Below are positions 9,976-53,899 of a DNA stretch of 64,000 nucleotides, piece after piece. A program made the translations under genes and the position numbers. This DNA is from Nitrospira sp. (lineage in GTDB: Bacteria; Nitrospirota; Nitrospiria; Nitrospirales; Nitrospiraceae), in NCBI GenBank assembly GCA_005116885.1, contig SWDP01000011.1:12391-76390 (forward strand). The letters are read 5' to 3'. Positions within the stretch are counted from its first letter, which is position 1; each line of letters starts with the position of its first letter. The notes below the pieces were generated by a model. That model was not told the DNA's origin. It saw nothing but the letters and a program-made list of their open reading frames with translations, and did not search any database.

Positions 9976-10184
9976 TGTCTACAGTGCAAACCACCGTGGC
10001 TGCCCCGAAGGGGTTTGTGATCACCTTACGGCGAAGCCCGATTGGCACACCGCAGAAACATCGGCTTGTGTTGACTGGCCTTGGCTTGAGGAAGATCAGG
10101 CAGCAGGTGACTCGCCCCAATACTCCACAAGTCAGAGGGATGATTGGTAAAGTCGGATATCTATTGGAAGTGCAGCCACAATGA
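9975..10184 (+). CDS. rpmD: 50S ribosomal protein L30
   Basis: The 69-residue L30 contains [26 protein letters not shown] and a short C-terminal strand. It shares one base with the rpsE stop, and its stop overlaps the rplO start. Confidence 0.95.
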
Positions 10185-10636
10185 ACTTACATGAGCTTGG
10201 TCCTGCAAAAGGATCCAGAAAAAAACGAAAACGGATTGGTCGTGGCCCAGGTTCTGGCCATGGGAAAACATCGGGCAAGGGGCATAAGGGTTTGCTAGCC
10301 AGATCCGGAGGTCGAAGCCGACAGGCCGGAGGGTTTGAGGGTGGACAGATGTCCCTCATTCGTCGAGTACCGAAGCATGGATTCACCAATATATTTCGCA
10401 AAGAATATTCGATTGTCAATGTGAAGAGCTTGGGTGACATGATAGTGTCTGGTACCATCACACCACAAGCATTGGTCGATGCCGGCCTGGTCAAGCGGAA
10501 GTCATTGCCGATCAAGGTTCTAGGAAACGGAGATCTTACCAAGGCGATTGTGGTGCAGGCGCACAAGTTTAGTAAGTCTGCAGAGGCAAAGATTCAAGCA
10601 GCTGGAGGGAGAGTCGAGGTCATTCCCGGTGTTTGA
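10181..10636 (+). CDS. rplO: 50S ribosomal protein L15
   Basis: The 151-residue L15 is a late-assembly 50S protein. [22 protein letters not shown] and the glycine-rich [14 protein letters not shown] segment identify it. It overlaps rpmD by 4 bases and secY by 8. Confidence 0.97.
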
Positions 10637-28094: not shown

Positions 28095-29276
28095 TTGAGC
28101 AGGGCTGGAATAGCAGAACAGATTGTGCCGGTGGTCTTGGGGCCACGAAGCTATGACATCGTCCTCCATCCTGGCTTACTTTCGACAGTGGGCGACAGGC
28201 TGCATACCCTTACGACCTCTCCGAAGATCGCCGTTGTGACAGATAGGCATGTGGCAAGCCATTATCTTCACAAGACGCTCCGATCGCTTCGCAAGGCAGG
28301 ATACGACCCGACGGAAATTATCTTGCCTCCGGGAGAGCAAACGAAGACGCTTGGAACAGTCGCCAAGGTTCTCGACGCGTTGGCCAAGCATAAGTTCGAA
28401 CGCCAATCACTGTTGTTGGCCCTCGGTGGTGGAGTGATTGGCGATGTGACAGGTTTTGCTGCCGCGATTTATCAGCGAGGAATTCCGTTCGTGCAAGTGC
28501 CGACCACGCTTGTGGCTCAAGTGGATTCCAGTGTGGGGGGCAAAACCGGTGTGGACCATCGGTTGGGGAAAAATCTCATCGGAGCGTTTTATCAGCCACG
28601 TGCAGTATTGATCGATCCGCTCACGCTGCGCACTCTGCCAGGCCGCGAATGGATTGCCGGTTTGGCTGAAGTGATCAAATACGGCATTATCGCCGACGAA
28701 GGGTTCTTCGCGTTTTTGGAACGAGAGATTTCCGGGCTGTTGAAATTGGAAAAAGAGCCGGTTCTCCACGTGATTAAACGATCGTGCGAGATCAAGGCGG
28801 AAGTAGTTGCCGCTGACGAGCGGGAGTCGAACCGTCGGCGCGTTCTCAATTATGGTCACACGATCGGACATGCCCTTGAGGCACTCTCAGGCTATCGTGG
28901 GTTGGTTCATGGTGAAGCGGTGGGGATTGGGTTAGTGCAAGAAGCGGATTTGGCTTGCCATATGGGTCTCTGCGGGCGCGACGTGGTTGAACGGATCAGA
29001 ACCCTGGTGCAGCGTGCCGGGCTGTCCGATCACGTTTCACCGTCATCTTTTTCTCGCCTTTGGAGTGCCATGCAGCATGACAAAAAAGTGGTTGGGGGGC
29101 AGGTCGTCGGAGTGTGGCCGGTCAAGATTGGGGAAGTGGTGATTCGACCAATCGAGGAGCAGGTGTGTGCCGAGTGGTTTCGGTGCATGCATGGCCGTGG
29201 GAACCGCGTATCGAACGGCCATCGGCCAGGCAGGCTATCCGGCGAAAGAGTCGCACGCAAAGGTACATCTCAATGA
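28095..29276 (+). CDS. aroB: 3-dehydroquinate synthase
   Basis: Converts DAHP to 3-dehydroquinate in the shikimate pathway, using NAD and a divalent metal. The 393 residues contain the NAD site GGGVIGDVTGFAAA, VPTTLVAQVDSSVGGKTG and the metal ligands in LAEVIKYG, NYGHTIGHALE and LVHGEAVGIG. A TTG start lies 6 bases after AAGGAGAGG. About 30 extra C-terminal residues, basic and low in family similarity, run into the next gene, which overlaps by 4 bases (ATGA). Confidence 0.95.
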   Translation: MSRAGIAEQIVPVVLGPRSYDIVLHPGLLSTVGDRLHTLTTSPKIAVVTDRHVASHYLHKTLRSLRKAGYDPTEIILPPGEQTKTLGTVAKVLDALAKHKFERQSLLLALGGGVIGDVTGFAAAIYQRGIPFVQVPTTLVAQVDSSVGGKTGVDHRLGKNLIGAFYQPRAVLIDPLTLRTLPGREWIAGLAEVIKYGIIADEGFFAFLEREISGLLKLEKEPVLHVIKRSCEIKAEVVAADERESNRRRVLNYGHTIGHALEALSGYRGLVHGEAVGIGLVQEADLACHMGLCGRDVVERIRTLVQRAGLSDHVSPSSFSRLWSAMQHDKKVVGGQVVGVWPVKIGEVVIRPIEEQVCAEWFRCMHGRGNRVSNGHRPGRLSGERVARKGTSQ

Positions 29277-30538
29277 CGATGAAACGCACGCCATCTGTGG
29301 CGTATCTGCAACAGGCATTGCGGGAAAAAACACGCGAAGTCGATGTCCTCCATCGGATCTCTGCGTCGATCAGCAATCAATTGGATCTCGAAGCCATTCT
29401 CAAACATATCGTCGACGTCGTCGTAGAAGTCACGAAGGCGGATGCCTGCCTCCTCTATCTATTGTCGGACAGTCAAGATGAACTCATTCTTCGCGCATCG
29501 AAAAATCCTCATCCCAAACTGATCGGTCGCATCACAATTGGATTAGGCGAGGGCATCACCGGGTGGGTGGCGCAGGAACGGACGCGCGTTGTGATTCCGA
29601 GTAATGCGAACGACGATCCACGGTTCAAGTTTTTTCATAACCTTCCGGAAGACCGCTATCAAGCATTTGTCTCTGTTCCGATCATGGCCAAAAAGGAAGT
29701 GGTCGGCGTCATCAATGTCCAACATAAGCGCCCCAGGCGCTATCAACCTGATGAGATCGCGCTCCTTTCGACGATCGCCACTCAAGTTGGAGGAGCGATT
29801 GAAAATGCGCGGCTGTACGATCAAATGCAACGCAAAGCATTACAGGTAGAGACACTGTCGCAGGTCTCGGAAACAGTGGCATCCAATCGATTGATCAAGG
29901 ATGTCCTCCAGCTTCTTGTGACGATGACGGCGCAGATGATGAACTCGAAGATCTGCTCGATCATGCTGTTGGACGAAGCCAGCGGGGAATTGCGGATTGC
30001 GGCAACACAAAGCCTCAGCGAGCAGTATCGCCGGAAGCCCAATCTTAAGATCGGGCAAGGCATTAGCGGGCGTGCAGTGAAAGACCGACGGTCGATCATT
30101 GTGCTCGATGTGTCCACTGAGCGGGACTATATGTATCCGGATATGGCCAAGAAGGAGGGGCTGTGCTCTTTGCTTTCAGTCCCGATGATGGTGCGTGATA
30201 AGGCCTTGGGCGTGATCAATAGCTACACGTCCGTTCCGCATGTATTCACCGGCGAAGAGGTCAAATTGCTTCAGGCCATTGCCAATCAGGCTGCCGTGGC
30301 TATCGAGCATACGACCCTGATTGAGAAGTCGCATGAGATGCAGGAAGCCCTGGCGGTTCGGAAGCTTATGGAGCGGGCCAAAGGCTACCTGATGCGTTCG
30401 AAGAAGCTGACCGAAGAAGAGGCTTTCAAACTCATTCAACGGCAAAGTATGGATTTTAGAAAGTCGATGCGCGAGATTGCTGAGGCGGTGCTTCTCGCTG
30501 GAGAACTCGATCAACGGGTTGAGAAGCAGCGTGGATAG
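29273..30538 (+). CDS. GAF-GAF-ANTAR putative antitermination regulator
   Basis: The 421 residues contain a short coiled start, GAF domain 1 (about 38-185, IGLGEGITGWVAQERTRVVI), a linker helix, GAF domain 2 (about 205-355, IGQGISGRAVKDRRSIIVLD) and a C-terminal ANTAR domain (about 365-415, RKLMERAKGYLMRSKKLTEEEA...SMREIAEAVLL). ANTAR domains bind paired RNA hairpins with hexanucleotide loops and prevent termination, as in NasR and AmiR. GAF domains usually sense small ligands. The ligand is unknown. The ATG overlaps the aroB stop, with AAAGG upstream. Candidate RNA targets lie at 31644-31716, 35029-35062, 52415-52498 and 53685-53899. Confidence 0.92.
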   Translation: MTMKRTPSVAYLQQALREKTREVDVLHRISASISNQLDLEAILKHIVDVVVEVTKADACLLYLLSDSQDELILRASKNPHPKLIGRITIGLGEGITGWVAQERTRVVIPSNANDDPRFKFFHNLPEDRYQAFVSVPIMAKKEVVGVINVQHKRPRRYQPDEIALLSTIATQVGGAIENARLYDQMQRKALQVETLSQVSETVASNRLIKDVLQLLVTMTAQMMNSKICSIMLLDEASGELRIAATQSLSEQYRRKPNLKIGQGISGRAVKDRRSIIVLDVSTERDYMYPDMAKKEGLCSLLSVPMMVRDKALGVINSYTSVPHVFTGEEVKLLQAIANQAAVAIEHTTLIEKSHEMQEALAVRKLMERAKGYLMRSKKLTEEEAFKLIQRQSMDFRKSMREIAEAVLLAGELDQRVEKQRG

Positions 30539-30590
30539 GTGTTATCAGCCAGGGACGTCCTCGGGCGTGGCAGGCTAAGGGATTGAGGCG

Positions 30591-31502
30591 TCACTTTGGA
30601 GAGGTCGAGGGGGGCTGACGTGTCCGTTCCGTTTCTTGTTCCGCCAGTTTCTTTTTGATTTCCTTCAGCTCCTTCCGTAACTCGTCTAGATCGGTATCTC
30701 TCTGAGCAGAGTCTTCTTTCACAGGCCTCGGTGATTGAACGGCAGTCGATCGTATGTCCGATGCCGTGGGCATTGTGGCAAGCAGGTTGTAGTCGATGAC
30801 GAGAGTGGTGTTGGTTGAACGGGCCGTCCGATAACTATCGGGGCGCTTGGCGGATTCTGGAACGAAGTGTACTGTGCGATTGGCCAATCCTGTCGGATTG
30901 AATGGATGCCGATCGGCTATGGTATTCGCGTCGGTCCGTTCTGTCCGTTGACGATACCCGGTCAAGGTCAGATACAGCGACCGTTCATAACTGTAGAGGG
31001 AGCCTCCCGTTGCTTCTACGGATGCCCCTCTTCCCACCTGCTCTGACTCACACACGCCGGGGAAACGGACGTCCGACAAGCAAAAGACCGCTCCGGCAGA
31101 TGGCGGTTGGACCGGCATGCTGTGTTTGACGATATGAAAGCCGACCTGCTGGTCCGACGCAGCTCTGGTGAGCCCTTCGACGAGGAGTGGCGCCAGGTAC
31201 TCAACGTCGTCATCCCCAAACACTCGAATGGTCTCAGTCTTGTCTGAGGCAAGGTTTCCTAATACGCCTCGGCCGTCCTTGAGAATCACGCCGCGAAGCA
31301 TTCGAGCCATCGTATCCACCTGTAGCGTTAAGGGATGGGTGGCTTGAAAAGACCGATCGGGAATACGTTCCACATACACTGCGCCGCGTTCGGACTGATG
31401 GATTGTGATATCCAGATCAGGCTTGGTCGCACAGGCAGACACGACCAGTGTCATCCCGGTGAGAAGAAGCAGGGCGAGTTGGGGACGATGAGACAACGGC
31501 AA
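30591..31502 (-). CDS. Putative lipoprotein, paralogue of the gene at 50228-51154
   Basis: The 303 residues have a signal peptide ending in a lipobox (VSAC, Cys at 24), then a conserved domain (SFQATHPLTLQVDTMARMLRGV, DDVEYLAPLLVEGLTRA, YSYERSLYLTLTGYR, VIDYNLLAT) and a C-terminal coiled coil (LDELRKELKEIKKKLAEQETER). The 50228-51154 product shares the same blocks in the same order (QATHPITL, LAPLLAEGLR, YAYGRQLYVILSQYR, IDYQLL, LRKELKSVQQQL). Function unknown. It is convergent with the ANTAR gene and divergent from the kinase operon. Confidence 0.75.
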   Translation of the reverse strand: MPLSHRPQLALLLLTGMTLVVSACATKPDLDITIHQSERGAVYVERIPDRSFQATHPLTLQVDTMARMLRGVILKDGRGVLGNLASDKTETIRVFGDDDVEYLAPLLVEGLTRAASDQQVGFHIVKHSMPVQPPSAGAVFCLSDVRFPGVCESEQVGRGASVEATGGSLYSYERSLYLTLTGYRQRTERTDANTIADRHPFNPTGLANRTVHFVPESAKRPDSYRTARSTNTTLVIDYNLLATMPTASDIRSTAVQSPRPVKEDSAQRDTDLDELRKELKEIKKKLAEQETERTRQPPSTSPK

Positions 31503-31593
31503 TTCTCAAAGTGAATAGAAGTCGTGAGTCTAGCATAGTCAGACAGGACGAGGACACTGGTAACATTCTTCAGATGCTGAGAGAGAGTTCTAC

Positions 31594-31623
31594 TTGACAG
31601 GAGGACAAGAGACTCCGAATATA
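31594..31623 (+). promoter_or_regulatory. Candidate promoter of the kinase operon leader
   Basis: TTGACA at 31594-31599 is followed after 18 bases by AATATA (31618-31623); other registers of the -10 (GAATAT, TATAGG) overlap. It lies about 20 bases before the first leader hairpin. Confidence 0.6.
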
Positions 31624-31643
31624 GGCCCACATAACGGTATGGA

Positions 31644-31716
31644 CTGAATATTGGACAACGATGTCCGACGATTCAGCCGGATTGTACGAAGTGTAAGAAA
31701 AGGACAATGGCGTCCT
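31644..31716 (+). promoter_or_regulatory. ANTAR-type dual-hairpin leader of the kinase operon
   Basis: Hairpin 1 has a 6-bp stem TTGGAC/GTCCGA around loop AACGAT (31657-31662), extended by an outer 6-bp stem CTGAAT (31644-31649) / ATTCAG (31671-31676). Hairpin 2 has a 5-bp stem AGGAC/GTCCT around loop AATGGC (31706-31711). Both loops are six bases with A at 1 and G at 4, the known ANTAR-RNA rule. Downstream, CTGTC/GACAG (about 31715-31730) can form a competing hairpin, but the terminator is not clear-cut. About 200 bases remain before the kinase ATG, with no gene. Confidence 0.7.
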
Positions 31717-31918
31717 GTCGGGATTGACAGAATGACCGGAAGGGCCTTTTCCTCTGCCACAGCATAGCCCTCCGCGGTCGTTCACGCATATCGAAACGAG
31801 CAGTAGTCACCGGCATGAGCAGGACCATTCCCGTCGCCTGTTACGGGGAGCGTCACGTGAGCGAGTGAACGTCCCGGTCGTAACGTAATGAGTGCGGTGC
31901 AGTAACGAGGCGAAAAGG

Positions 31919-34156
31919 ATGAATGACCATCCTGAGTCCAGAGATCCCAGGCCCTATTCTTGGCTGCCGATCCTTCTCGGTGTGCTGACGATCGCCACGC
32001 TGAGCATCGGCACAATCGCATTCCGCTACATCGAAACACGCATGGTTGCGACAGCAGGCGAAACCCTGGCCCAGACAGCCGCCGAAGTTTCGGACAAACT
32101 AGACCGATTTCTCTTTGAACGGCATGGCGATGTGTTGATGATGGCGAGGACATTCAGCGTGCAGTCATACAATCAGGAATTTCAGTCGGCCTATGTCGCG
32201 GGGCTGAGGACCGCGTATCCGGATTACTTGTGGATCGGCGCCACTGACGAACGAGGAAAGATTGTCGTAGCAACCGACCCGTCCACGGTAGGGCGTGATT
32301 ACAGCGCCGAACCCTGGTTTCAGGCCGTGCGTGACGGGCAAGGGGTCCATATGGGGGACGTGGAGCCATTCGCTGTGATGGGCGGTCCTGACGCCATAGC
32401 CGTGACAGCTCCCATCGCCGGACCGCGCGGAGAATTTTTGGGGGTCGTGACAACACGAGTGGAAATTCCTGGCCTTGAAGACGTCATGACGAGAACCCTA
32501 CTGGCATTCCGGCAGCGAGAGGGAATTTGGGGAGGGCTGGAGTATCAGTTCCTGTCCGAGAAAGGAGTGGCCTTCATCGATTCGGATCTTGAGCATAAGG
32601 GCCATGTCAATCTCAAACAACTCGGACTCCCGTCGGCGCTGTTACGAGAAGGCGCCTTGTCCGGTTACATTGAAGAGGAACACGAACATCGCCATGTTCC
32701 TGTTGTGACCGGGTATGCCAGGACTCAAGGCTTAGGTGATTATAAGGGTTTACATTGGACGGTGCTGATGCGTATGGATCGGCGCGATGTTCTGACGCCG
32801 ATTCGGGAAGTTCTCTGGAATCTTGGCTTGGCAGGGAGTGTCGTGGTGGTTCCGACGTTTGCGCTCCTGGTATGGACCGTCACACGTGTGAGAAGGGAAT
32901 ATCGGCGCGCGCAACAGGAGCGCGGGCTCGCCAGGGACGCTGAAGCGTCGCTGCGAAAGAGCGAGGCGCATACGCGGAGTATCGTCGATCTGGCGCTCGA
33001 TGGCTTCATCGGGATGGATACAGCGGGAATGATCACCGACTGGAACTTCCAAGCCGAAGAGATATTCGGCTGGTCCCGGCAAGAGGCAGTTGGGCGGCTC
33101 CTTGCAGCCACCATCATTCCGGCACAACATCGGGACGCCCACGAACAGGGATTGCGTCGTTTTCTTGCAACCGGCGTAGGACCGATGCTGAACACCAGGA
33201 TTGAGATCACTGGTGTCCATCGTGACGGACACGAGATTCCGATTGAACTAGCGATTTCGCCGTCCTTGGGACAGGGAGGCATCTACACGTTCAGTGCCTT
33301 CGTGCGTGATATTTCGGCACGAAAGCAGACGGAGTGGCAGAGCCGCATGCATGAAGAGGAACTGCAACGACTCAACGAGGCCTTGGACAGGCGTGTGCAG
33401 GCCCGCACGCAAGAGTTGGCTGCCGTCAACGATTCATTGGTTGCAGAAGTGACTGAACGGATGCAGACCGCGGCGTCTCTTGAACAGAGCCGGCAGGCAC
33501 TGCAAAAGTTGGCGTTTCAGTTGTTACGCGTGCAGGAGGAAGAGCGGCGTCGTATCTCGCGCGATCTGCATGACGACATCAATCAACGGCTTGCGTTGCT
33601 TGCCATGGATATCGAAGCGGTAGGACGGAAGCTCGATTCACCCGCAGATCATGTGGGACGGGCTGTGAGAGAAATACAAGAGCGGGTGGTGGAGTTGTCC
33701 GATGTGGTGCGGCACCTGGCCTATCAGCTTCATCCATCTATTCTCGATGATCTCGGGCTTCCGATTGCATTGCAGCGGCTCGTGGAAGATTTCACCGCTC
33801 GAAGCCATATCCGGGGGAGTTTTGAGCATAAGAATATCCCCGCAGCGGTCCCTCAGGAGATCGCGACCTGTCTCTATCGCATTACCCAGGAAAGTCTCAA
33901 CAACGTGGTTCGCCATGCAGAGGCGTCTCAAGTCGATGTGGACCTGACCGGGGCTCAATCGGAGCTGGTGGTGACGATTACAGATAATGGAGTAGGATTT
34001 GACTCCGAACAACTCCGGAACGGATCGCATGGACTGGGGCTGCTCGGCATGAAAGAGCGAGTCGCTTTGGTTCACGGGAACTTACACGTCGTGTCTGCAG
34101 TGGGGAAGGGAACGAGGGTACAGGTGGTGGTGCTCGTTCCAGCGGAGGTCGCATGA
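31919..34156 (+). CDS. Membrane histidine kinase with periplasmic sensor and PAS
   Basis: The 745 residues are arranged as: membrane segment near 15-37, periplasmic Cache-like sensor (about 40-280, YLWIGATDERGKIVVATDPSTVGRDYS), second membrane segment near 293-312, PAS (about 345-460, FIGMDTAGMITDWNFQAEEIFG), coiled coil, HisKA_3 with the phosphoacceptor in RRRISRDLHDDINQRLALL, and HATPase (LYRITQESLNNVVRHAEA, DNGVGFD, GLGLLGMKERV). It is NarX/DegS-like. It overlaps the regulator gene by 4 bases. Its signal is unknown; the periplasmic sensor type often binds small metabolites. Confidence 0.92.
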   Translation: MNDHPESRDPRPYSWLPILLGVLTIATLSIGTIAFRYIETRMVATAGETLAQTAAEVSDKLDRFLFERHGDVLMMARTFSVQSYNQEFQSAYVAGLRTAYPDYLWIGATDERGKIVVATDPSTVGRDYSAEPWFQAVRDGQGVHMGDVEPFAVMGGPDAIAVTAPIAGPRGEFLGVVTTRVEIPGLEDVMTRTLLAFRQREGIWGGLEYQFLSEKGVAFIDSDLEHKGHVNLKQLGLPSALLREGALSGYIEEEHEHRHVPVVTGYARTQGLGDYKGLHWTVLMRMDRRDVLTPIREVLWNLGLAGSVVVVPTFALLVWTVTRVRREYRRAQQERGLARDAEASLRKSEAHTRSIVDLALDGFIGMDTAGMITDWNFQAEEIFGWSRQEAVGRLLAATIIPAQHRDAHEQGLRRFLATGVGPMLNTRIEITGVHRDGHEIPIELAISPSLGQGGIYTFSAFVRDISARKQTEWQSRMHEEELQRLNEALDRRVQARTQELAAVNDSLVAEVTERMQTAASLEQSRQALQKLAFQLLRVQEEERRRISRDLHDDINQRLALLAMDIEAVGRKLDSPADHVGRAVREIQERVVELSDVVRHLAYQLHPSILDDLGLPIALQRLVEDFTARSHIRGSFEHKNIPAAVPQEIATCLYRITQESLNNVVRHAEASQVDVDLTGAQSELVVTITDNGVGFDSEQLRNGSHGLGLLGMKERVALVHGNLHVVSAVGKGTRVQVVVLVPAEVA

Positions 34157-34797
34157 GTAAGCCTCGGGTCCTGTTGGGTGACGACCATACCCTGGTGTTG
34201 GAAGGATTTCGGAAACTGTTGGAGGATCGGTGCGAGATCGTCGGGGTGGCGGAGGATGGCCGTACACTGCTTCGAAAGGCCTACGAGTTGAAGCCTGACA
34301 TTATCACGCTCGATATCTCGATGCCGGAACTCAACGGGGTCGATGCGGCCAGGAAGTTAAAGAAGATTCTGCCTGACACCAGGCTGATCTTTGTGACGAT
34401 GCACGCGGATCAGGCCTATGTGAATGAAGCCTTCAAGGCCGGCGCTTCCGGCTATCTACTCAAACGATCCGCCGGGACAGAATTGCTTCAAGCCGTTCAA
34501 TCGGTCATGGATGGACAATGTTATGTCACTCCCTTGGTCGCAAAAGGTCTGGTGGAGTCGGCCATCACAAGAAAGATGCCTGCGGTTCTGAGTGACAAAC
34601 CCTTAACTGGGCGCCAACGCGAAGTGTTGCAACTCGTGGCCGAGGGAAAGACGGTGAAGGAGATTGCGTCGGCTCTCACGCTCTCGCCGAAGACGGTCGA
34701 ATTTCATAAATCGCAGATTATGACGCTCCTCGATCTTCACACGACGGCGGAGCTTACAAAATACGCCCTCGTCCACGGCCTCCTCACATCAGACTAG
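34153..34797 (+). CDS. NarL/FixJ-family response regulator
   Basis: The 214 residues have a receiver domain with Asp10/Asp11, phosphoacceptor Asp54, Thr82 and Lys104, and a LuxR-type HTH (LTGRQREVLQLVAEGKTVKEIASALTLSPKTVEFHKSQI). It is co-translated with the kinase through the ATGA overlap, so the pair should be cognate. It lies immediately upstream of a porin gene and the urea operon, which are possible targets. Confidence 0.95.
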   Translation: MSKPRVLLGDDHTLVLEGFRKLLEDRCEIVGVAEDGRTLLRKAYELKPDIITLDISMPELNGVDAARKLKKILPDTRLIFVTMHADQAYVNEAFKAGASGYLLKRSAGTELLQAVQSVMDGQCYVTPLVAKGLVESAITRKMPAVLSDKPLTGRQREVLQLVAEGKTVKEIASALTLSPKTVEFHKSQIMTLLDLHTTAELTKYALVHGLLTSD

Positions 34798-35028: not shown

Positions 35029-35062
35029 GCGCACAATGGCGTGCGTCGCGACGATGTCGTCG
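35029..35062 (+). promoter_or_regulatory. ANTAR-like hairpin pair before porin gene
   Basis: Hairpin 1 has stem GCGCAC/GTGCGT around loop AATGGC (35035-35040). Two bases later, hairpin 2 has stem CGAC/GTCG around GATGTC (G instead of A at loop position 1). A close copy of the whole segment precedes the second porin at 53865-53899, with an extra pair of compensatory differences in stem 1. No terminator is visible nearby. It ends 63 bases before the porin ATG. Confidence 0.5.
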
Positions 35063-35125: not shown

Positions 35126-36394
35126 ATGAAGATAGATCTAAAGAGACAGTGGAAAATGTGTGTGGTGACCGGGGTCGCCATGGCACTGGTGGCTGGGATG
35201 GCATCCACGGTCCCGAGCGCCTACGCCGGTGGCACGATCAAGGTTGACGACGACAAGTATATTTCCGTCGGAATGGGCATCCGTCAAAGTTTCAATATGG
35301 TAGAAGATGGGTCGGCGAGCGGGTCACAGTGGAGCAACAGCTTCGCGATCGACAACGCTCGTATCTATATCAACGGAGGGATTCATAAGTACGTCAAGTT
35401 TGCGTTCAACACCGAATGTTTTAGCTGTAATAATACTGTCGCCGCCGCAACAGGTGGTTCAGGTACGGTAGGCTTACTTGATGCGATCGGGCAGTTCGAG
35501 TTTACTGAGACAGTGAATTTCTGGATCGGGCGCACCCTGGTGCCGACAGAGCGTGGCGAACTGAACGGCCCCTTCTATCACGCGGTCTTCGACGGCTTTA
35601 GGACTCCATTTAATCCAGCCGATTTGAGCGCGGGATTCGGCGCAGGTGGGGCTGGTAAATATGGCCGTGACAATGGCGCGGTCTTCTTCGGGAAAGTCCA
35701 TCCAGGGGGGACTCATCTGCAATACGTCGCGTCGGTGTTCCAGGGGCTGCGGTCAAGTGCGACGGCAGGACCAAATCAAAGAGACAGTCTGAAGTACGCC
35801 GGGCGTCTCACGTGGAACTTGCTGAACGACGAGTCGAATCCCGGGTACTACACCAGCGGGACCTACTACGGGACAGCCGGGGATATTCTCGCGCTCGCGG
35901 TCGGGGGAGAATATCAGAACGCCGGCGCTGGTTCACTTGCAAATAAAAGCGCTTTTGGGAGTTTTGTCGGCGATGTTCTGTTTGAGAAAGTGCTCGATAA
36001 CAACAATGGCAAGACCAATGGCGTGTTCACGGCCAACGCTGAATACAAACGGTACTGGGCACAGGACCTAGCTGCCGCTGGGAATGCAGATTGTTTCTGC
36101 GTGTTTAGCGGAACGTCAGTCACCGCGTACGCCTTGTATCTGTTTCCACAGGAGGTAGGGATCGGGAGATTCCAGCCCTATGGGAGATATACCTTCGTGA
36201 ACAGTGTGCACACCAGCGCACTCGATGAATTTGAGTTTGGCACGAACTACGTCATTAGCGGTCACAATGCACGCATCTCGGCATTCTGGCGGACGGGCAA
36301 TCTGGCCCCCACGGGTGGGCCTGCGACGCTCGGCGCCAATCTGGGAGGTCGGCATCAAGATTCTGTCCATCTGGCCTTACAGTTGCAGTATTAA
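35126..36394 (+). CDS. Outer-membrane porin-like beta-barrel protein
   Basis: The 422 residues begin with a basic start, a hydrophobic signal and a cleavage site after SAYA (about residue 35). The rest alternates in short amphipathic strands rich in Gly, Asn and Tyr and ends in a terminal aromatic (LALQLQY), typical of outer-membrane barrels. Position just upstream of urtA suggests uptake of urea or small amides, as proposed for FmdC-type porins in other urea clusters; I infer this from context, not from sequence identity. Confidence 0.75.
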   Translation: MKIDLKRQWKMCVVTGVAMALVAGMASTVPSAYAGGTIKVDDDKYISVGMGIRQSFNMVEDGSASGSQWSNSFAIDNARIYINGGIHKYVKFAFNTECFSCNNTVAAATGGSGTVGLLDAIGQFEFTETVNFWIGRTLVPTERGELNGPFYHAVFDGFRTPFNPADLSAGFGAGGAGKYGRDNGAVFFGKVHPGGTHLQYVASVFQGLRSSATAGPNQRDSLKYAGRLTWNLLNDESNPGYYTSGTYYGTAGDILALAVGGEYQNAGAGSLANKSAFGSFVGDVLFEKVLDNNNGKTNGVFTANAEYKRYWAQDLAAAGNADCFCVFSGTSVTAYALYLFPQEVGIGRFQPYGRYTFVNSVHTSALDEFEFGTNYVISGHNARISAFWRTGNLAPTGGPATLGANLGGRHQDSVHLALQLQY

Positions 36395-36411
36395 AGGCAG
36401 TGGGTGGTTGT

Positions 36412-36501
36412 GATACGTCGCGGGAGCGGAGCCATCTGATGATGATGGGGAGAGGCTGCGGTGGCACAAGGTGGTTCAGAAAAATGCTCGTGCGACGTAT
36501 C
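36412..36501. repeat. Long inverted repeat between porin and urtA
   Basis: The 16-base arm 36412-36427 (GATACGTCGCGGGAGC) pairs with 36486-36501 at 14 of 16 positions; the outer 10 are perfect (GATACGTCGC/GCGACGTATC). The 58-base loop contains GATGATGATG. No T run follows. It could protect the porin mRNA end or act on urtA, whose start is 51 bases downstream. Confidence 0.7.
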
Positions 36502-36551
36502 CTTCTGCCGATCTGACCTAACATCTATGTGTGAGTGAAAGGAGACAGACT

Positions 36552-37919
36552 ATGGCAACGGATGAACCTAATGAGGCAAGCCCGGTTGAACCGGGCGGTA
36601 CTGCAGAGAGCGAGGCTGGCCCTTCGCGGCGTGAGCTTCTGGTTAAGGGAGGCAAGGTCGTAGCCGGCATTGGGGTTGCCGCCCTGCTCGGCAACTTGGG
36701 CAACTGGGCCTTGTCCTATGCGGCGGACAAGGAACCGATCAAGATCGGTATCCTGCATTCGCTCAGCGGCACGATGGCGATCAGCGAAGTGTCGTTGCGG
36801 GACACCGTGATGATGGCCGTCGAAGAAATCAACGCGAAGGGTGGGGTGATGGGCCGGATGATCAAGCCGGTCATCGTCGATCCGGCCTCGAACTGGGATC
36901 TCTTTGCCGAAAAGGCCAAGCAACTGTTGTTCCAGGATAAGGTCTCGGTCACCTTCGGCTGTTGGACCTCGGTCAGCCGCAAATCGGTGTTGCCAGTCTT
37001 TGAGAAGAACAACGGTCTGCTGTTCTATCCCGTGCAGTACGAGGGAGAAGAATGTTCGCGCAATGTCTTCTACACCGGCGCCGCCCCGAATCAGCAAGCC
37101 GTGCCGGCGGTGGATTATCTGATGAGCAAAGAAGGCGGCGGATTCACGAAGTTCTATCTGCTCGGCACCGATTACGTGTATCCCCGCACCACCAATAAAA
37201 TCCTGCGGGCGATGCTGTTGGCGAAGAAAGTCCCGGCAGACAAGATCATGGAAGAATACACGCCGTTCCACCATCAGGACTACCAAACCATCGTCGGCAA
37301 ACTGAAGAAATTTGCCGCCGGCGGTGGAGCTGCCGTGATCAGCACGATCAACGGCGACAGCAATGTGCCGTTCTACAAGGAGTTTGCGAACCAAGGCTTG
37401 CGGGCCGAAGATGCTCCGATCATGGCCTTCAGCGTGGCGGAAGACGAGCTGCGCGGGATGGACACGTCCGCGCTGGTCGGGCACCTGGCGGCGTGGAATT
37501 ATTATCAAAGCGTCGATACGCCGCAGAACAAGCAGTTCGTGGCGAATTTCAAGGCCTACTGCAAGAAGAACAACCTGCCGGACGGCGACAAGCGGGTCAC
37601 AGACGATCCGATCGAAGCCGCCTATTTCGGCGTGTATATCTGGAAGCAAGCCGTCGAGAAGGCCGGAGGAACTGAGGTCGACAAGGTCAGAAAAGCGGTC
37701 TATGGCAGCAAGTTCATGGCGCCGGGCGGCGAGATTATGATGGATGCCGCCAATCACCACACCTACAGACCGGTGCTTATCGGTGAGATCCTGGCGGACG
37801 GGCAGTTCAAGGTGGTCTCCCGTTCACCGGGGCTAGTGAAACCGGAACCCTGGAGTGAATTTACAAATCCGGACAAGGGCTGCGACTGGGTCGGGCATCA
37901 AGGCACCTATCAAAAATAG
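36552..37919 (+). CDS. urtA: Urea ABC transporter substrate-binding protein
   Basis: UrtA binds urea or short amides in the periplasm. The 455 residues have a Tat-like leader (SRRELLVKGGKVVAGIGVAALLGNLG) and a mature domain starting near EPIKIGILHSLSGTMAISE. The blocks TFGCWTSVSRKSVLPVFEKNNGLLFYPVQYEG and FYLLGTDYVYPRTTNKI are characteristic of UrtA/FmdD. The ATG at 36552 follows AAAGGAG. First gene of urtABCDE. Confidence 0.95.
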   Translation: MATDEPNEASPVEPGGTAESEAGPSRRELLVKGGKVVAGIGVAALLGNLGNWALSYAADKEPIKIGILHSLSGTMAISEVSLRDTVMMAVEEINAKGGVMGRMIKPVIVDPASNWDLFAEKAKQLLFQDKVSVTFGCWTSVSRKSVLPVFEKNNGLLFYPVQYEGEECSRNVFYTGAAPNQQAVPAVDYLMSKEGGGFTKFYLLGTDYVYPRTTNKILRAMLLAKKVPADKIMEEYTPFHHQDYQTIVGKLKKFAAGGGAAVISTINGDSNVPFYKEFANQGLRAEDAPIMAFSVAEDELRGMDTSALVGHLAAWNYYQSVDTPQNKQFVANFKAYCKKNNLPDGDKRVTDDPIEAAYFGVYIWKQAVEKAGGTEVDKVRKAVYGSKFMAPGGEIMMDAANHHTYRPVLIGEILADGQFKVVSRSPGLVKPEPWSEFTNPDKGCDWVGHQGTYQK

Positions 37920-37923
37920 TCCG

Positions 37924-37964
37924 TCACGTGAGAGGGAGCGACTGATGCGCCCCCTCTCACGTGA
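37924..37964. repeat. Perfect hairpin between urtA and urtB
   Basis: The 13-base arm TCACGTGAGAGGG (37924-37936) is perfectly complementary to 37952-37964 across a 15-base loop, starting 5 bases after the urtA stop. There is no T run. Such hairpins after a binding-protein gene often stabilise its mRNA relative to the permease genes. Confidence 0.8.
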
Positions 37965-38036
37965 GTGAGAAATGCGGGTGACGGGACGAGAGGTCTACGT
38001 TATTCGTGTGTCTTGTTGAGGGGGTACTTCACCATT

Positions 38037-39590
38037 ATGATGATTTCTCTGAGGCATACTGTTGCCACGTTAGGTATCGTGGGACTGTTCCTGTTGTTCG
38101 GACCAAGCCGGGCGATCGCGGCGGATGGCCCTGTTACCGCTCCTTCGACTTCTTCTATAGAGCAAGCCCTCACCCAATTGACCAGCGAAGACGAATCCAT
38201 TCGCGACGCAGCCATTCGCGTGTTGATTTCACAGGGCGATGCCGGCCTGGTTCCTCGACTGGAGGGGATACGCGCCAGTGCAAGCCGGAGCATCCGGCAG
38301 GCCATCAAGCCGCTCATGGATCTCCTCAAGAATCGAGCGAAACTCGCCAGCCCGGATAGCGATGCCCGTCGGTCGGCGGCGACAGATCTCGGCTCATCCG
38401 GTAATCCTTCGGCGATTCCGTGGCTGGATGCCGCCAAGGTGAATGAGTCGAACAAGTGGGTGCGCTATACGATGGAAGAGTCTTCAGCGCTGATCAAACT
38501 CGCATCGGACGATCCATCGACCAAACTCGCGGCGGCCGAGAAGCTCGGTGAACTTCGCAGTGGAAATGCGGTGCCGGCCCTGAAAGCGCTGGTCGAGGCC
38601 GGCGCCGTCGCTGAGGCGACTGAACAGCAGAAGGTACTGGCGAAAGTTGCCGAGGCCGCGATTGACCGGATTGAAACATGGGGCGATTGGGCGAATGCGA
38701 TTGAAACGATCTTCCGCGGAATCAGTCTCAGTTCAATCCTTTTGATTATGTCGTTGGGCCTGGCAATTGTGTTCGGTTTGATGGGCGTCATCAATATGGC
38801 TCATGGCGAGTTGATGATGGTCGGCGCCTACGCCACATTTGTCACGCAGCAATGTTTCACGGCCTGGTTTCCGCCAGATGTGTTCGACTGGTATTTTCCC
38901 GTGGCATTGCCGGTCGCGTTCCTTGCGGCCGCCGGCTCAGGATTCCTGCTGGAGGCGACGGTCATCCGGTTTCTCTATGGGCGGCCACTCGAAACGATGT
39001 TGGCGACTTGGGGCGTGAGCTTGGTTCTCATGCAGGCGGCCCGGGTCTATTTCGGTGACCTCACCGCCGTGGTTGCGCCAGGGCCGCTCAGAGGCGGCGC
39101 GCAAGTGTTGGTGGGGGTCTACCTGCCGTATAACCGCATATTCATCATCGCGCTCTCGATCGTCTGCGTGCTGGGGATTTACTTCGCGCTCTTTAAATCG
39201 AATCTCGGATTGCGCGTGCGGGCGGTGACGCAAAATCGAAATATGAGCGCCTGTCTCGGCATTCCTACCAGAAAAGTCGACTCCTATACCTTTGCCTTCG
39301 GGTCGGGGTTGGCGGGCATCGCGGGCTGGGTCCTTACGATGGTCGGGAACGTCGATCCGGGCCTCGGTCAGAACTATATCGTGGATGCTTTCATGGTGGT
39401 GGTCACCGGAGGGGTTGGGAAACTGGCCGGTACGATCGTGGCCTCGTTGGGAATCGGCGGGTTGAACAAACTGATCGAGCCGGGGTTAGGCGCTGTGTAC
39501 GGCAAGGTTTTCATCCTCGTGATGGTGATTTTATTCTTGCAGTGGCGGCCGTCCGGACTGTTTGCGATGAAGGGGCGAGATGCCGATTGA
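38037..39590 (+). CDS. urtB: Urea ABC transporter permease UrtB
   Basis: UrtB is a LivH-like permease. The 517 residues start with a signal-like segment and a periplasmic, alanine-rich helical-repeat region (about 30-210) that UrtB proteins carry, followed by about eight membrane segments (LSSILLIMSLGLAIVFGLMGVINMAHGELMMVGAYATF; GVGKLAGTIVASLGIGGLNKLIEP). The ATG at 38037 follows GAGGGG; a second ATG at 38040 is equivalent. It overlaps nothing; urtC starts 14 bases later. Confidence 0.94.
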   Translation: MMISLRHTVATLGIVGLFLLFGPSRAIAADGPVTAPSTSSIEQALTQLTSEDESIRDAAIRVLISQGDAGLVPRLEGIRASASRSIRQAIKPLMDLLKNRAKLASPDSDARRSAATDLGSSGNPSAIPWLDAAKVNESNKWVRYTMEESSALIKLASDDPSTKLAAAEKLGELRSGNAVPALKALVEAGAVAEATEQQKVLAKVAEAAIDRIETWGDWANAIETIFRGISLSSILLIMSLGLAIVFGLMGVINMAHGELMMVGAYATFVTQQCFTAWFPPDVFDWYFPVALPVAFLAAAGSGFLLEATVIRFLYGRPLETMLATWGVSLVLMQAARVYFGDLTAVVAPGPLRGGAQVLVGVYLPYNRIFIIALSIVCVLGIYFALFKSNLGLRVRAVTQNRNMSACLGIPTRKVDSYTFAFGSGLAGIAGWVLTMVGNVDPGLGQNYIVDAFMVVVTGGVGKLAGTIVASLGIGGLNKLIEPGLGAVYGKVFILVMVILFLQWRPSGLFAMKGRDAD

Positions 39591-39604
39591 GAATAGGGAA
39601 TACG

Positions 39605-40762
39605 ATGAGTGACGGAACAACAGACACGAATCGCAGTGGAGGTTTAGGCTTCGCGGTCGTAGGCGCCATTTTGCTCGTGGTCATGCCGCTCTTGAACCTC
39701 TTGCCGCCGGAAGATTCCTGGTTTCACCTCTCCGATTTCAGTCTGAACCGGTTCGGGAAATTCCTCGCTTTTGCGATTCTGGCTCTCGGGCTCGATCTCA
39801 TCTGGGGCTACACCGGCATCTTGAGCTTGGGGCAAGGGGTATTTTTCGGATTAGGCGCCTATTGCATGGGCATGCACATGATGCTCACGATCGGAAAAGA
39901 GAGCGTCTATGGAAGCGATATGCCGGACTTCATGGTGTGGAACCAGGTGAAAGAGCTGCCGTTCTTCTGGAAGCCGTTCTATAGTTTTCCAGCTGCGGTC
40001 ATTGGAGCACTCCTAGTGCCGATGGCATTTGCGTTAGTGTTCGGATTTTTCGCTTTCCGAAGCCGCATCAAAGGCGTCTATTTTGCGATCATCACGCAGG
40101 CGCTGGCTCTCGCCGCCTGGCTGGTCTTCAACCGGAACGATACAAATCTCGGCGGCACGAACGGATTGACCGATTTTAAGCAGGTGCTTGGGTATCGGCT
40201 CTCCGAACCCGGTACGCAGCGGGCGTTGTATGTTATTACCGTGCTCTGTCTCGGCGCGACGTATCTCTTATGCCGGTGGATCATTCGTTCACGGGCCGGA
40301 CGGGTGCTGGTCGCCGTGCGGGACAGCGAGAAGCGCGTGGTCTTTTCCGGGTATACCCCGGCCAACTACAAGCTGTTCGTCTTTGTCGTATCTGCGGGCT
40401 TGGCTGGATTAGCAGGGTTGCTGTATGCCCCTCAGGTCGGCATCATCACACCGGCGCAGATCGGGGTTCTGCCGTCGCTTGAAATGGTCATTTGGGTGGC
40501 GGTGGGTGGCCGCGGTAGTCTGGCGGGGGCTGTATTGGGGGCTGTGAGCGTGAATTACGGCCGTAGCGTGCTCACGAATTATTTTCCTGAACTCTGGCCC
40601 TTCATCCTCGGCGGACTCTTCGTGCTGGTGGTGCTGTTGTTTCCAGATGGGATGGTCGGCATGATTCGAAAAGGGAAGAGCCTCCTGACACAACGGAAAG
40701 CCGCTGAGGAAAAACCGGCTGTGCCGGATCGGAAAGTGGCCGTATCGGAGGGGAAGCGCTAG
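39605..40762 (+). CDS. urtC: Urea ABC transporter permease UrtC
   Basis: The LivM-like second permease. The 385 residues include DLIWGYTGILSLGQGVFFGLGAYCMGMHMM, FGFFAFRSRIKGVYFAIITQALALAAWL and the EAA-like loop (VRDSEKRVVFSGYTPANYKLFVFVVSAGLAGLAGLLY). The start MSDGTTDTN is preferred over an upstream frame in urtB. It ends 1 base before urtD. Confidence 0.94.
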   Translation: MSDGTTDTNRSGGLGFAVVGAILLVVMPLLNLLPPEDSWFHLSDFSLNRFGKFLAFAILALGLDLIWGYTGILSLGQGVFFGLGAYCMGMHMMLTIGKESVYGSDMPDFMVWNQVKELPFFWKPFYSFPAAVIGALLVPMAFALVFGFFAFRSRIKGVYFAIITQALALAAWLVFNRNDTNLGGTNGLTDFKQVLGYRLSEPGTQRALYVITVLCLGATYLLCRWIIRSRAGRVLVAVRDSEKRVVFSGYTPANYKLFVFVVSAGLAGLAGLLYAPQVGIITPAQIGVLPSLEMVIWVAVGGRGSLAGAVLGAVSVNYGRSVLTNYFPELWPFILGGLFVLVVLLFPDGMVGMIRKGKSLLTQRKAAEEKPAVPDRKVAVSEGKR

Positions 40763-40763
40763 A

Positions 40764-41435
40764 ATGGCCGAGCCAAGTTCCTTTCAAAATTCCATCATCT
40801 ATCTCGATGGCGTGACCGTCGATTACGATGGCTTCAAGGCGTTGAACAACTTGACCTTCATGGTCGACTACCAAGACAAGGAACTGACCGGGAAACATGC
40901 GGATGAAATCGTGAAGCTCGGTATCGGGCGAAAGTTCCAAGCGCCGTCCATCTATGGAAATCTGACCGTCTGGGAAAACCTCGACTTGTCGTTGAAACGG
41001 AGCAGCAAAGGCGTCTTCCCGACGTTGTTCGGGAAGTCGACGGCGGAGGAACGGGCAAGGATCGAGAAAAATCTCGAAACGATCGGCCTGAAAGATTATG
41101 CGCATACCAGAGCCGGGTCGCTGTCGCACGGTCAGAAGCAGTGGCTCGAAATCGGCATGGTGATTTTGCAAGATCCTTCGTTGCTCCTCGTCGACGAGCC
41201 GGTCGCGGGGATGACGGACAAGGAAACGGAGCAGACGGGACAATTGCTCCAATCGTTGGCGGAGAAGCACGCGATCATCGTCATCGAGCACGACATGGAG
41301 TTTGTCCGGCAAATCGCCCGCATCGTGACGGTCTTGCACGAAGGCACCGTCATTTGTGAAGGCACCGTCGAGAAGGTGCAGGCAGACGATCGGGTCAGGG
41401 AAATATATCTGGGCCGTCAAAAAGTGGCTCACTAA
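40764..41435 (+). CDS. urtD: Urea ABC transporter ATPase UrtD lacking Walker A
   Basis: UrtD is one of two ATPases of the urea importer. The 223 residues have the normal start (IIYLDGVTVDYDGFKALNNLTF), Q-loop Gln59 (GRKFQAPSIY), signature LSHGQ (120-124), Walker B LLLVDE (140-145) and H-loop His176. Between residues 37 and 40 the segment carrying GPNGAGKTT, normally about 30 residues here, is missing, without loss of frame; usual length is about 250. The subunit could not bind ATP in the normal way. It is a real in-frame deletion or an assembly error. Confidence 0.93.
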   Translation: MAEPSSFQNSIIYLDGVTVDYDGFKALNNLTFMVDYQDKELTGKHADEIVKLGIGRKFQAPSIYGNLTVWENLDLSLKRSSKGVFPTLFGKSTAEERARIEKNLETIGLKDYAHTRAGSLSHGQKQWLEIGMVILQDPSLLLVDEPVAGMTDKETEQTGQLLQSLAEKHAIIVIEHDMEFVRQIARIVTVLHEGTVICEGTVEKVQADDRVREIYLGRQKVAH

Positions 41436-41559
41436 CAGGATGTTGAAACGTGCTCCCAACTTTGTTCTCGGCTCGACAAGATCCTCAACGTAGCCCAGAG
41501 GCTACGCCTCCGGTCTTCTCTCGCCTGCGGCCTTGCTGGAAGCCCATTTGAACATCCTG
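41436..41559. repeat. Covarying hairpin repeat, copy 1 (urtD/urtE)
   Basis: A 124-bp imperfect palindrome starts right after the urtD stop. Terminal arms CAGGATGTT/AACATCCTG pair, a middle stem AAGA...TCTT pairs, and the apical hairpin is CGTAGC-CCAGAG-GCTACG. Its stems differ from those of copies 2-6 by paired changes. It lies within the 197-base gap between urtD and urtE. Confidence 0.88.
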
Positions 41560-41632
41560 CAAGAGTGTTCTTTCGTTGGGCCACGCGGGCATATCATCAG
41601 ATCAACAGACGTCGAGGCTTTTTAGTTACACC

Positions 41633-42343
41633 ATGCTTCAGCTTGATAAGATCAATGCCTACTACGGTGAAAGTCACATTCTTCGGGATGTGTCCTTTAC
41701 CATCGACTCGGGTGAGGTTGTGTGTCTCATGGGTCGGAACGGTGTCGGCAAGACGACCACGCTGAAAGTATTGACCGGCCTCCTGCCTGCGAGATCGGGG
41801 CGGATGATGTTCGATGGGAAGGATGTCACAAAGGCGCCGACCGATCAGAGAGCGCGTAGCGGGTTGGCTTGCGTGCCGCAGGGCCGGGAGATTCTTCCTC
41901 ACTTGACGGTTCGTGAGAATTTGTTGCTCGGCTTCTGGGCCAGGTCGGACAAGCCGAATGGGACGGTCGAAAAGACCGCGTTCGACGAAGTCTACCACCT
42001 CTTTCCCAAGCTCACACAAATTCTCAATCGCCCGGGCGGTGTCTTGAGCGGCGGCGAGCAGCAGCAGTTGGCGATCGGTCGCGCAATCCTGTCGAATCCT
42101 AAACTGCTCTTGCTCGATGAGCCGACTGAAGGTATTCAACCTTCGATCGTAGACCAAATTGAAGACGTGATCATTGGATTCAAACAGCAGCGCCGGTTCG
42201 CCATCTTGTTGGTCGAGCAGGGGCTTCACTTTGCCGCCCGTTTGGCGGAGAAATATGTGGTGATGGCCAAAGGGGCGGTGGTGGTGGCGGGAAAAAGTAC
42301 TGAGTTGACCGCGGAGCAGGTGAAGCAGTATTTGACGGTATAG
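41633..42343 (+). CDS. urtE: Urea ABC transporter ATPase UrtE
   Basis: The LivF-like second ATPase. The 236 residues contain Walker A GRNGVGKTT, Q-loop (CVPQGREILPHLTVRENL), signature LSGGEQQQ, Walker B LLLLDEPTEGIQ and the H-loop position replaced by Gln in LLVEQGLHFA, as is usual in LivF/UrtE. The start MLQLDKINAYYGESH is the family start; no strong ribosome binding site is visible. Unlike UrtD, all ATP-binding motifs are present. Confidence 0.94.
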   Translation: MLQLDKINAYYGESHILRDVSFTIDSGEVVCLMGRNGVGKTTTLKVLTGLLPARSGRMMFDGKDVTKAPTDQRARSGLACVPQGREILPHLTVRENLLLGFWARSDKPNGTVEKTAFDEVYHLFPKLTQILNRPGGVLSGGEQQQLAIGRAILSNPKLLLLDEPTEGIQPSIVDQIEDVIIGFKQQRRFAILLVEQGLHFAARLAEKYVVMAKGAVVVAGKSTELTAEQVKQYLTV

Positions 42344-43761: not shown

Positions 43762-45489
43762 ATGAAGATTCCTCGGCGACAATACAACGACCTCTACGGA
43801 CCGACGGCAGGGGATCGTATTCGCCTGGCCGATACGGAGTTGTTGATCGAGATCACACGCGATCTGACAGTGCCTGGGGAAGAGGCTAAGTTCGGTGGCG
43901 GCAAGGTCATCCGAGACGGCATGGGCCAGTCGCCTTCGGCCACCCGTGCACGAGGTGCGCTCGATCTTGTGATTACCAACGCGATCATTGTCGATTGGTG
44001 GGGGATCGTGAAGGCGGATATCGGCATCCGGGATGGCCGTATTGTGGGCATCGGCAAGGCCGGCAATCCCGACATGATGGAAGGCGTGACGAAGGGGATG
44101 GAGATCGGGGCTTGCACCGAAGTGCTTTCCGCTGAAGGCAAGATCATTACAGCGGGTGGAATCGATACGCACATTCATTTCATCTGTCCGCAGATTATTA
44201 ATGAGGCGTTGGCGAACGGGCTCACGACGTTGATCGGTGGCGGCACCGGTCCGGCAACCGGGACGAATGCGACGACCTGTACTCCCGGCGCCTGGAATAT
44301 CCATCGGATGCTGGAAGCCGCGGAAGGATTCCCGGTTAACCTAGGTTTTCTTGGGAAAGGCAATTCATCGTTGCCGGATGGTTTGCGCGAGCAGGTCGAA
44401 GCCGGGGCGATCGGACTCAAGTTGCACGAAGACTGGGGCACGACTCCGGCGGCGATTTCGACTTGCCTCGATGTTGCGGAAGAATTCGATATTCAGGTTG
44501 CGATCCACACGGATACGATAAACGAAGCCGGTTTTGTCGAAGATACGATTAAGGCGTTCAAAGGGAGGACGATTCACTCATTCCACACGGAAGGCGCCGG
44601 TGGTGGCCATGCTCCAGACATCATTAAGGTCTGTGGTGAGGCCAATGTCTTGCCCTCGTCCACGAATCCGACGATGCCGTTTACGGTGAATACGATGGAC
44701 GAGCATCTCGACATGCTGATGGTCTGCCACCATTTGAATCCGCGTGTGCCGGAGGATATCGCGTTTGCGGAATCGCGCATCCGGCGGGAAACGATTGCTG
44801 CTGAAGATATCCTGCACGATATGGGGGCCATTAGTATTATGTCGTCTGACTCGCAGGCGATGGGGCGTGTGGGGGAAGTTATTATTCGCACCTGGCAGAC
44901 GGCGCACAAGATGAAAGTGCAGCGGGGACATCTCTCTCAAACGGCGGCCGATAAGCTGGCCGGTTCCAACGATAACTTTCGTGTGCGGCGGTATATCTCG
45001 AAGTACACCATCAATCCAGCGATTGCGCACGGGATTGGGCATGAAGTCGGCTCAGTCGAAGTCGGCAAGTTGGCGGATCTTGTGCTGTGGAAGCCGGCAT
45101 TCTTCGGTGTGAAGCCTGAAATCGTGTTGAAGGGCGGGTTCCCCATGTCCGCTGCCATGGGAGATCCCAATGCGTCCATCCCCACACCGCAGCCGGTCCT
45201 CACCAGGCCCATGTTCGGGAGCTTTGGCCGCGCCTTGTTTTCCACCAGCTTGACCTTTCTATCCAAGGCCGCAATCGACCACGAAGTGCACAAGTCGCTC
45301 GGCTTGCAGAAGCGTGTCGCGGCGGTGAAGCAATGTCGCAACATCGGCAAGCGCGACATGAAGCTGAACGATGCGTTACCGCACATCGAGGTAGACCCAG
45401 AAACCTATGTGGTGAAGGCTGACGGGCAAATTCTCACATGCGATCCGATGGCGGTGTTACCAATGGCCCAACGCTATTTTCTATTCTGA
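43762..45489 (+). CDS. ureC: Urease alpha subunit
   Basis: The 575-residue catalytic subunit. Nickel ligands His137, His139, carbamylated Lys220, His249, His275 and Asp363 are all present, as are the flap Cys322 and His323. The start [25 protein letters not shown] is standard. The ribosome binding site is weak (AAGAG within the end of repeat copy 3). The gene looks fully functional. Confidence 0.98.
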
Positions 45490-52414: not shown

Positions 52415-52451
52415 AAAAAACGTCCTCAAGCCCGCTGGGGCTGGAGGACGT
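52415..52451 (-). terminator. Leader terminator before carbonic anhydrase
   Basis: Minus-strand 8-bp stem ACGTCCTC/GAGGACGT, internal loop CA/TT, 4-bp stem GCCC/GGGC with loop CAGC, then six T. It lies 285 bases before the coding start, so it must be read through for expression. Confidence 0.88.
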
Positions 52452-52498
52452 CATTGTCCATACCATTTTTGAGGCCGGTTGGAAACGCCATTGTTTCC
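52415..52498 (-). promoter_or_regulatory. ANTAR-type dual-hairpin leader with terminator (carbonic anhydrase)
   Basis: Read on the minus strand. Hairpin 1 is GGAAAC-AATGGC-GTTTCC (52498 to 52481). After 21 bases, hairpin 2 is GGAC-AATGAC-GTCC (52459 to 52446). The 3' arm of hairpin 2 is also the 5' arm of an intrinsic terminator: ACGTCCTC...GAGGACGT with inner GCCC/GGGC, followed by six T (52420 to 52415). Hairpin 2 and the terminator therefore exclude each other. Loops obey A1/G4. This is the textbook layout for ANTAR antitermination. The rest of 52130-52414 holds a palindrome but no gene. Confidence 0.82.
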
Positions 52499-53684: not shown

Positions 53685-53781
53685 GGGGAACAATGGCGTT
53701 TCCCACAGGCCTCAAGAAAGAACATCAGTACGGTTTGGACAATGGCGTCCTCCGGTCCCAACGGGCTAGAGGACGTTTTTT
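53685..53781 (+). promoter_or_regulatory. ANTAR-type dual-hairpin leader with terminator (porin 2)
   Basis: Hairpin 1 has a 7-bp stem (53685-53691 with 53698-53704, one G-T pair) around loop AATGGC. After 32 bases, hairpin 2 is GGAC-AATGGC-GTCC (53737-53750), whose 3' arm is part of the terminator stem at 53746-53775. It aligns closely with the carbonic anhydrase leader on the other strand, including GGCCTCAA in the linker. Just upstream, CTCATTC-GAGG-GAATGAG (53667-53684) forms another perfect hairpin. Confidence 0.83.
53746..53781 (+). terminator. Leader terminator before porin 2
   Basis: Stem CGTCCTC (53746-53752) / GAGGACG (53769-53775) with inner CCC/GGG, followed by six T (53776-53781). 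It is 175 bases before the porin start and overlaps hairpin 2 of the leader. Confidence 0.9.
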
Positions 53782-53864
53782 ATTGGCTGGATTGTGCGTG
53801 GTAAGGGTCGGTGGGAATCGACAGGAACGTGAAAAGGCGAGTGGGCAGATAGGGTCTTGCGGTG

Positions 53865-53899
53865 TGCGCACAATGGCGTGCGCGGCGACAACGACGTCG
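53865..53899 (+). promoter_or_regulatory. Second ANTAR-like hairpin pair before porin 2
   Basis: Hairpin 1 has a 7-bp stem TGCGCAC/GTGCGCG around AATGGC (53872-53877); hairpin 2 is CGAC-AACGAC-GTCG. Both loops obey A1/G4. Nearly the same segment precedes the first porin (35029-35062). No terminator follows; the ATG is 57 bases away. Confidence 0.6.

Follow-up and report, generated by a model that had tools for sequence, protein, structure and literature searches.

A probable urea-uptake leader as a candidate ANTAR target RNA upstream of a two-component system in Nitrospira

Dual-hexaloop leaders of the ANTAR type are already known, nitrogen-related examples included (PMC3369931, cited here and below in part; PMC7496416). 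In the eut system of Enterococcus faecalis (EutV/EutW), one regulator serves several leaders, each with two hexaloop hairpins whose loops have A as first and G as fourth base, and the second hairpin (P2) overlaps an arm of the terminator; the linkers between the hairpins are 5-12 nt, and longer ones abolish activity (PMC3369931, in part; PMC8934654). The NasR-nasF system of Klebsiella oxytoca has a dual-hairpin leader, nitrogen-related targets and a one-component ANTAR protein that senses nitrate/nitrite via a NIT domain (PMC7496416). A survey of actinobacterial ANTAR RNAs found linkers of 2-25 nt and sites acting mostly near the ribosome binding site, and transcription factor genes are among its reported targets (PMC8164766). 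Multi-operon ANTAR nitrogen regulons were predicted in 2012, with glutamate synthase genes in Desulfotomaculum reducens and nitrogenase units in Pelobacter carbinolicus (PMC3369931, in part).

Here we analysed a leader with two such hairpins in a 64,000-nt stretch of DNA from Nitrospira sp. (the window), where it precedes genes for a histidine kinase and a response regulator. We consider it probable (about 0.72) that this element serves as target RNA for an ANTAR regulator, which would act by antitermination into the kinase/regulator genes, and that it is an inherited urea-uptake leader. The features on which this reading draws are as follows.

29273..30538, plus strand: GAF-GAF-ANTAR protein, presumed regulator (profile match; no other ANTAR gene was found in this genome)
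31594-31599 (TTGACA) and 31618-31625 (-10 region AATATA/TATAGG), plus strand: promoter (conserved in homologous leaders)
31644..31676, plus strand: outer stem enclosing hairpin 1 (sequence, aligned leaders)
31651..31668, plus strand: hairpin 1 (P1), loop AACGAT (sequence, aligned leaders, covariation)
31701..31716, plus strand: hairpin 2 (P2), loop AATGGC (sequence, aligned leaders)
31712..31752, plus strand: weak candidate intrinsic terminator GTCCTGTCGG / CCGGAAGGGC, tail CTTTTCC (folding, alignment to urtA leaders)
31919..34156, plus strand: histidine kinase (dCache-PAS-HisKA_3); ORF open from 31892, likely start ATG 31919
34153..34797, plus strand: NarL-type response regulator (domain match)
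35126..42343, plus strand: genes for an ExtI-like porin and a urea ABC transporter (urtABCDE), which readthrough might reach
52422..52498, minus strand: sister leader, hairpin pair with overlapping terminator, upstream of carbonic anhydrase (51272-52129) (motif, folding, covariance model)
53685..53784, plus strand: sister leader, hairpin pair with overlapping terminator, upstream of BBP2 porin-amt-PII-glnD-glnA (motif, folding, covariance model)

The hairpins of the kinase leader were found where a preliminary description, made from the sequence alone, had placed them: P1 (TTGGAC-AACGAT-GTCCGA) within the outer stem CTGAAT (31644-31649)/ATTCAG (31671-31676), and P2 (AGGAC-AATGGC-GTCCT). Both hexaloops have A1 and G4, as had also been proposed, and these two positions are invariant in 12/12 aligned homologous leaders, a set from 11 genomes in which one genome (G005) is represented twice, once by a copy before its porin. 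A scan of the window for C[A..G..]G hairpin pairs (stem length 4 bp or more, gap up to 40) found four, whereas 200 first-order Markov resamples gave 0.045 on average and never more than one. Six distinct places in the genome have the exact sequence GGACANNGNNGTCC, four of them in the window; the other two, the hairpin-like sites L002 and L003, are inside coding genes and were set aside as chance matches. The whole-leader folding energy is ordinary (z -1.27), and we have therefore built our case on motif, conservation and context rather than on stability. The same ordinary energy is what would be expected of chance hairpins with no function, an explanation to which the excess of pairs, the gap in whole-genome scores and the genus-wide conservation described below leave next to no probability. 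None of the Rfam 15 covariance models matched at the kinase leader.

The promoter proposed just upstream of the hairpins could be recognized by its conservation. Most of the 12 homologous leaders share it (TTGACAGGAG-N5-AGACTCCGAATATA) along with P1, the outer stem and P2, and the candidate is kept in relatives that include three without the hairpins. A plain consensus scan of 30500-33500 returned no promoter and no plus-strand terminator; the promoter is missed because its -10 region is weak. Between TTGACA and the -10 region (31594-31625) lies a conserved inverted repeat, GGAG-N9-CTCC, and the long spacing of 18-20 bases is reminiscent of MerR-type promoters.

The distance between P1 and P2 is 32 nt, which exceeds both the eut range and that of the actinobacterial survey; beyond the outer stem it is 22 nt. 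Linkers of the pairs described here are mostly 14-36 nt, in contrast to the short ones on which eut activity depends. We regard the long linker as a difference and not as an exclusion, because the 2012 definition permits a linker of variable length (PMC3369931, in part). The outer stem may serve to shorten the free linker, which beyond this stem is about 13 nt in another leader (L105) and 22 nt in the window.

The presumed regulator is encoded by a gene that ends 1.1 kb upstream of the hairpin pair and whose start codon was chosen by the length of its relatives (421-423 aa). Its ANTAR domain matches PF03861 with 66-71 bits (cut-off 27.3), and the nearest solved structure is Rv1626, followed by EutV and NasR. 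Based on the list of RNA-contacting EutV residues in PMC8934654 and our own mapping, six of the 11 are identical (Arg142, Lys143, Lys149, Glu160, Met172 and Arg175), two are conservatively changed (Lys147 to Arg, Tyr164 to Phe) and Arg168, Asn173 and Arg177 differ. The residues coordinating G4 in EutV are thereby retained as Arg142, Lys149 and Glu160, with Phe for Tyr164. Like NasR, the Nitrospira protein appears to be a one-component regulator of nitrogen-related targets; however, it has a GAF-GAF region instead of the NIT domain of NasR, or of the receiver domain found in both EutV and Rv1626 (PMC8164766), and its target set is much broader than that of NasR. Among the nearest solved GAF domains are those of EI-Ntr (PtsP) and NifA-type (nlh1) proteins, a resemblance that hints at a nitrogen-status signal. 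The genome has an amoA-type gene and so probably comes from a comammox Nitrospira. Among the named loci, that of Nitrospira sp. CG24A has the most similar ANTAR protein. In Nitrospira sp. RSF11 (locus L210, genome G009) the ANTAR gene, around 10001-11677, is seemingly interrupted by an ExtI-porin-like stretch between two pieces, which could reflect assembly or real decay; the kinase-leader hairpins of this genome are also damaged.

A covariance model built from 34 leaders, with no kinase leader and not the window's own leader among them, gave three strong sites when the 3.19-Mb genome was searched (55.8, 55.4 and 38.3 bits, the last being the kinase leader), the next score being 19.5. None of the three is more than 24 kb from the sole ANTAR gene, and each has nitrogen-acquisition genes beside it. 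The terminators of the two sister leaders are strong (-20.5 and -17.8 kcal/mol, each with a T6 tail) and both use the 3' arm of P2. The A1/G4 hexaloop pair, the overlap of P2 with a terminator arm, which is clear here in the sister leaders, and the service of several leaders by one regulator are all shared with eut, while the intrinsic terminators set the sister leaders apart from the actinobacterial sites near ribosome binding sites.

Two further observations concern the same part of the genome. A single, conserved hexaloop hairpin, GCGCAC-AATGGC-GTGCGY, occurs at 53865-53899 and 35029-35062 of the window and also in other loci (L098:4134, L107:4131 and L133:4316). It is followed within a few bases by CGAC-N6-GTCG, a second loop often without A1, and it lies shortly upstream of the start codons of the BBP2 and ExtI-like porins with no terminator; possibly this is an ANTAR site with one hexaloop, close to the start codon. 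In addition, Rfam reports 5_ureB_sRNA (95.5 bits) at 43908-44203 of the window on the minus strand, antisense to ureC, a match that may be due simply to the urease coding sequence being conserved.

The pairs are conserved well beyond this genome. In 32 genus genomes we counted the core GGACAAYGRCGTCC 88 times, compared with 7 times for the reversed pattern. Elsewhere in the genus, pairs are also located ahead of a nitrate/cyanate-type ABC transporter with cyanase and ahead of a nirC-nirA unit, and N. defluvii has them before nadE and amt. Across the order (147 genomes, our own tally), pairs were found in 83 of the 111 genomes with an ANTAR gene and in one of the 36 without; in genus g2 the corresponding figures are 9/9 and one of at least 20. 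Part of this co-occurrence is due to shared ancestry, and there is an exception, genome G115, which has a pair but no detected ANTAR gene. The pair in this genome (L225, G115:C17:157109-157169) has a terminator and lies downstream of ureD.

Conservation also bears on whether the element acts as RNA. In 44 aligned pairs the P1 helix has 64 double-changed cells, compared with 13.8 in shuffles; in the homologous leaders of the kinase set it is paired in 93.8% of cells. The scanner required 4-bp stems, which biases the inner 4 bp of P1; the outer two pairs are nearly unbiased and also covary, and P1 covaries partly within the kinase leaders alone. P2 is nearly invariant and so is uninformative in this respect. 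Since its inner arms are also palindromic, P2 would suit a different explanation, in which a transcription factor, for example the neighbouring NarL-type regulator, would use the GGAC-N6-GTCC repeats as its DNA operator. We consider this very improbable, as the P1 arms vary while pairing is maintained and the conserved loop, AAYGRC, is not palindromic. Moreover, the pairs are oriented to the downstream gene, lie 3' of promoters and share sequence with terminators. Their distribution follows that of the ANTAR gene, and they are also present in genomes without this kinase/regulator pair at the site. The ANTAR-type reading of the preliminary description is thus upheld by the single ANTAR gene nearby, the overlapping terminators of the sister leaders, the covariation of P1 and the order-wide co-occurrence.

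The kinase leader's own terminator had been called unclear, an apt judgement given that we found just one weak candidate. Its arms, GTCCTGTCGG and CCGGAAGGGC, span 31712-31745 with one G.A mismatch, the 5' arm shares bases with the 3' arm of P2, and the fold (-11.4 kcal/mol) is followed by CUUUUCC without a long U tract. With P2 held folded, P2 and its downstream folds together reach -11.0 kcal/mol, and the two states are therefore balanced. No covariation of the candidate terminator helix was seen in the aligned leaders. Because this terminator is weak, antitermination at the window's leader is put forward as a putative step. By comparison, the urtA leaders of relatives have a strong terminator (GTCCTTTTGGTCC-N-GGACCGGAAGGGC-GTTTTTTTT in L157, L158, L167 and L173), to which P2 and the candidate's 3' arm can be aligned.

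These properties would also fit a genuine ANTAR site at which the switch has decayed or works in another mode (mRNA stability, pausing or Rho), with the ancestral terminator eroded and the kinase nearly constitutive. Consistent with such decay, the terminator has a weak energy, a short U run and a helix without covariation where the aligned urtA terminator is strong; both stems are damaged in G009, although its kinase is 93% identical, and the hairpin block is missing from the kinase leaders of three relatives (G002, G003 and G015). However, most aligned leaders keep both hairpins and the 3' arm of the terminator, and one genome (G021) retains a strong version of the terminator (TTTTTT) before its kinase gene. 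On balance we regard loss or change of the switch as possible but unlikely. The points against our main reading are the weak terminator, its lack of covariation, linkers longer than EutV tolerates, the leaders of the four relatives just named (G009, G002, G003 and G015) and the pair in G115.

The alignment with urtA leaders is also informative about the origin of the element. We consider it an inherited urea-uptake leader because relatives with no kinase at the site (L157, L158, L167 and L173) carry the homologous leader directly before urtA. Other genomes show further arrangements: in L145 and L151 a porin-start-like sequence lies between leader and kinase (our own comparison with the L101 porin), G005 has one copy of the leader before the kinase and another before the porin-urtA genes, and G003 and G015 retain the pair before urtA, though it is absent before the kinase. 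Judging from these sequences, it is simplest to suppose that an old urea-uptake leader became separated from its operon by the kinase/regulator genes, and that the terminator weakened later, in the lineage of the window.

The hairpins, their conservation, the regulon, the co-occurrence with ANTAR genes and the homology to urtA leaders are read directly from the sequences, and from them we infer ANTAR binding, its signal and antitermination at the kinase leader. The GAF-GAF-ANTAR protein from the adjoining gene probably senses nitrogen status and, when active, would bind the P1 and P2 hexaloops on the nascent transcript. P2 would then be kept folded, tying up the 5' arm of the terminator hairpin with which it overlaps, and RNA polymerase would proceed into the kinase and response regulator genes and possibly reach those for the porin and urea transporter. 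If not, some transcripts would end near 31750. With the two-component genes between leader and urea operon, a second sensor would sit below the RNA switch. The preliminary description had proposed such a cascade, of which the anatomy of genes and leader is borne out and the cascade itself is a prediction. A two-component system as the downstream target is a further difference from EutV.

Several related nitrogen operons under one ANTAR system were also predicted in 2012 (PMC3369931, in part); the Nitrospira regulon belongs to another phylum and comprises other genes (urea, ammonium, PII, glutamine synthetase, cyanate and nitrite). A literature search for ANTAR with Nitrospira, covering the 2012 survey apart from its supplementary tables, returned incidental co-mentions only and no example from Nitrospirota. 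As far as the literature so searched goes, this Nitrospirales nitrogen regulon, with its unusual linkers and a two-component system as a downstream target, has no earlier report. With the curated NtrC cut-off, no protein passed in the 32 genus genomes, which have many NtrC-like proteins.

Nitrospira includes nitrite oxidisers and complete ammonia oxidisers, and how these bacteria choose among ammonium, urea, cyanate and nitrite has not been worked out, as far as we found. We suggest tentatively, at even odds, that Nitrospirales, comammox members included, have one order-wide ANTAR RNA regulon for nitrogen acquisition (urea, ammonium, PII, glutamine synthetase, cyanate, nitrite assimilation and carbonic anhydrase), with unusually long linkers, and that capture of a two-component system by the urea leader has produced a cascade from switch to phosphorelay. 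A single RNA-binding regulator with a readable, countable target motif would make for a directly testable regulon, and the apparent relocation of the two-component system under an existing leader illustrates one way in which a second layer of sensing could be added to an RNA switch.
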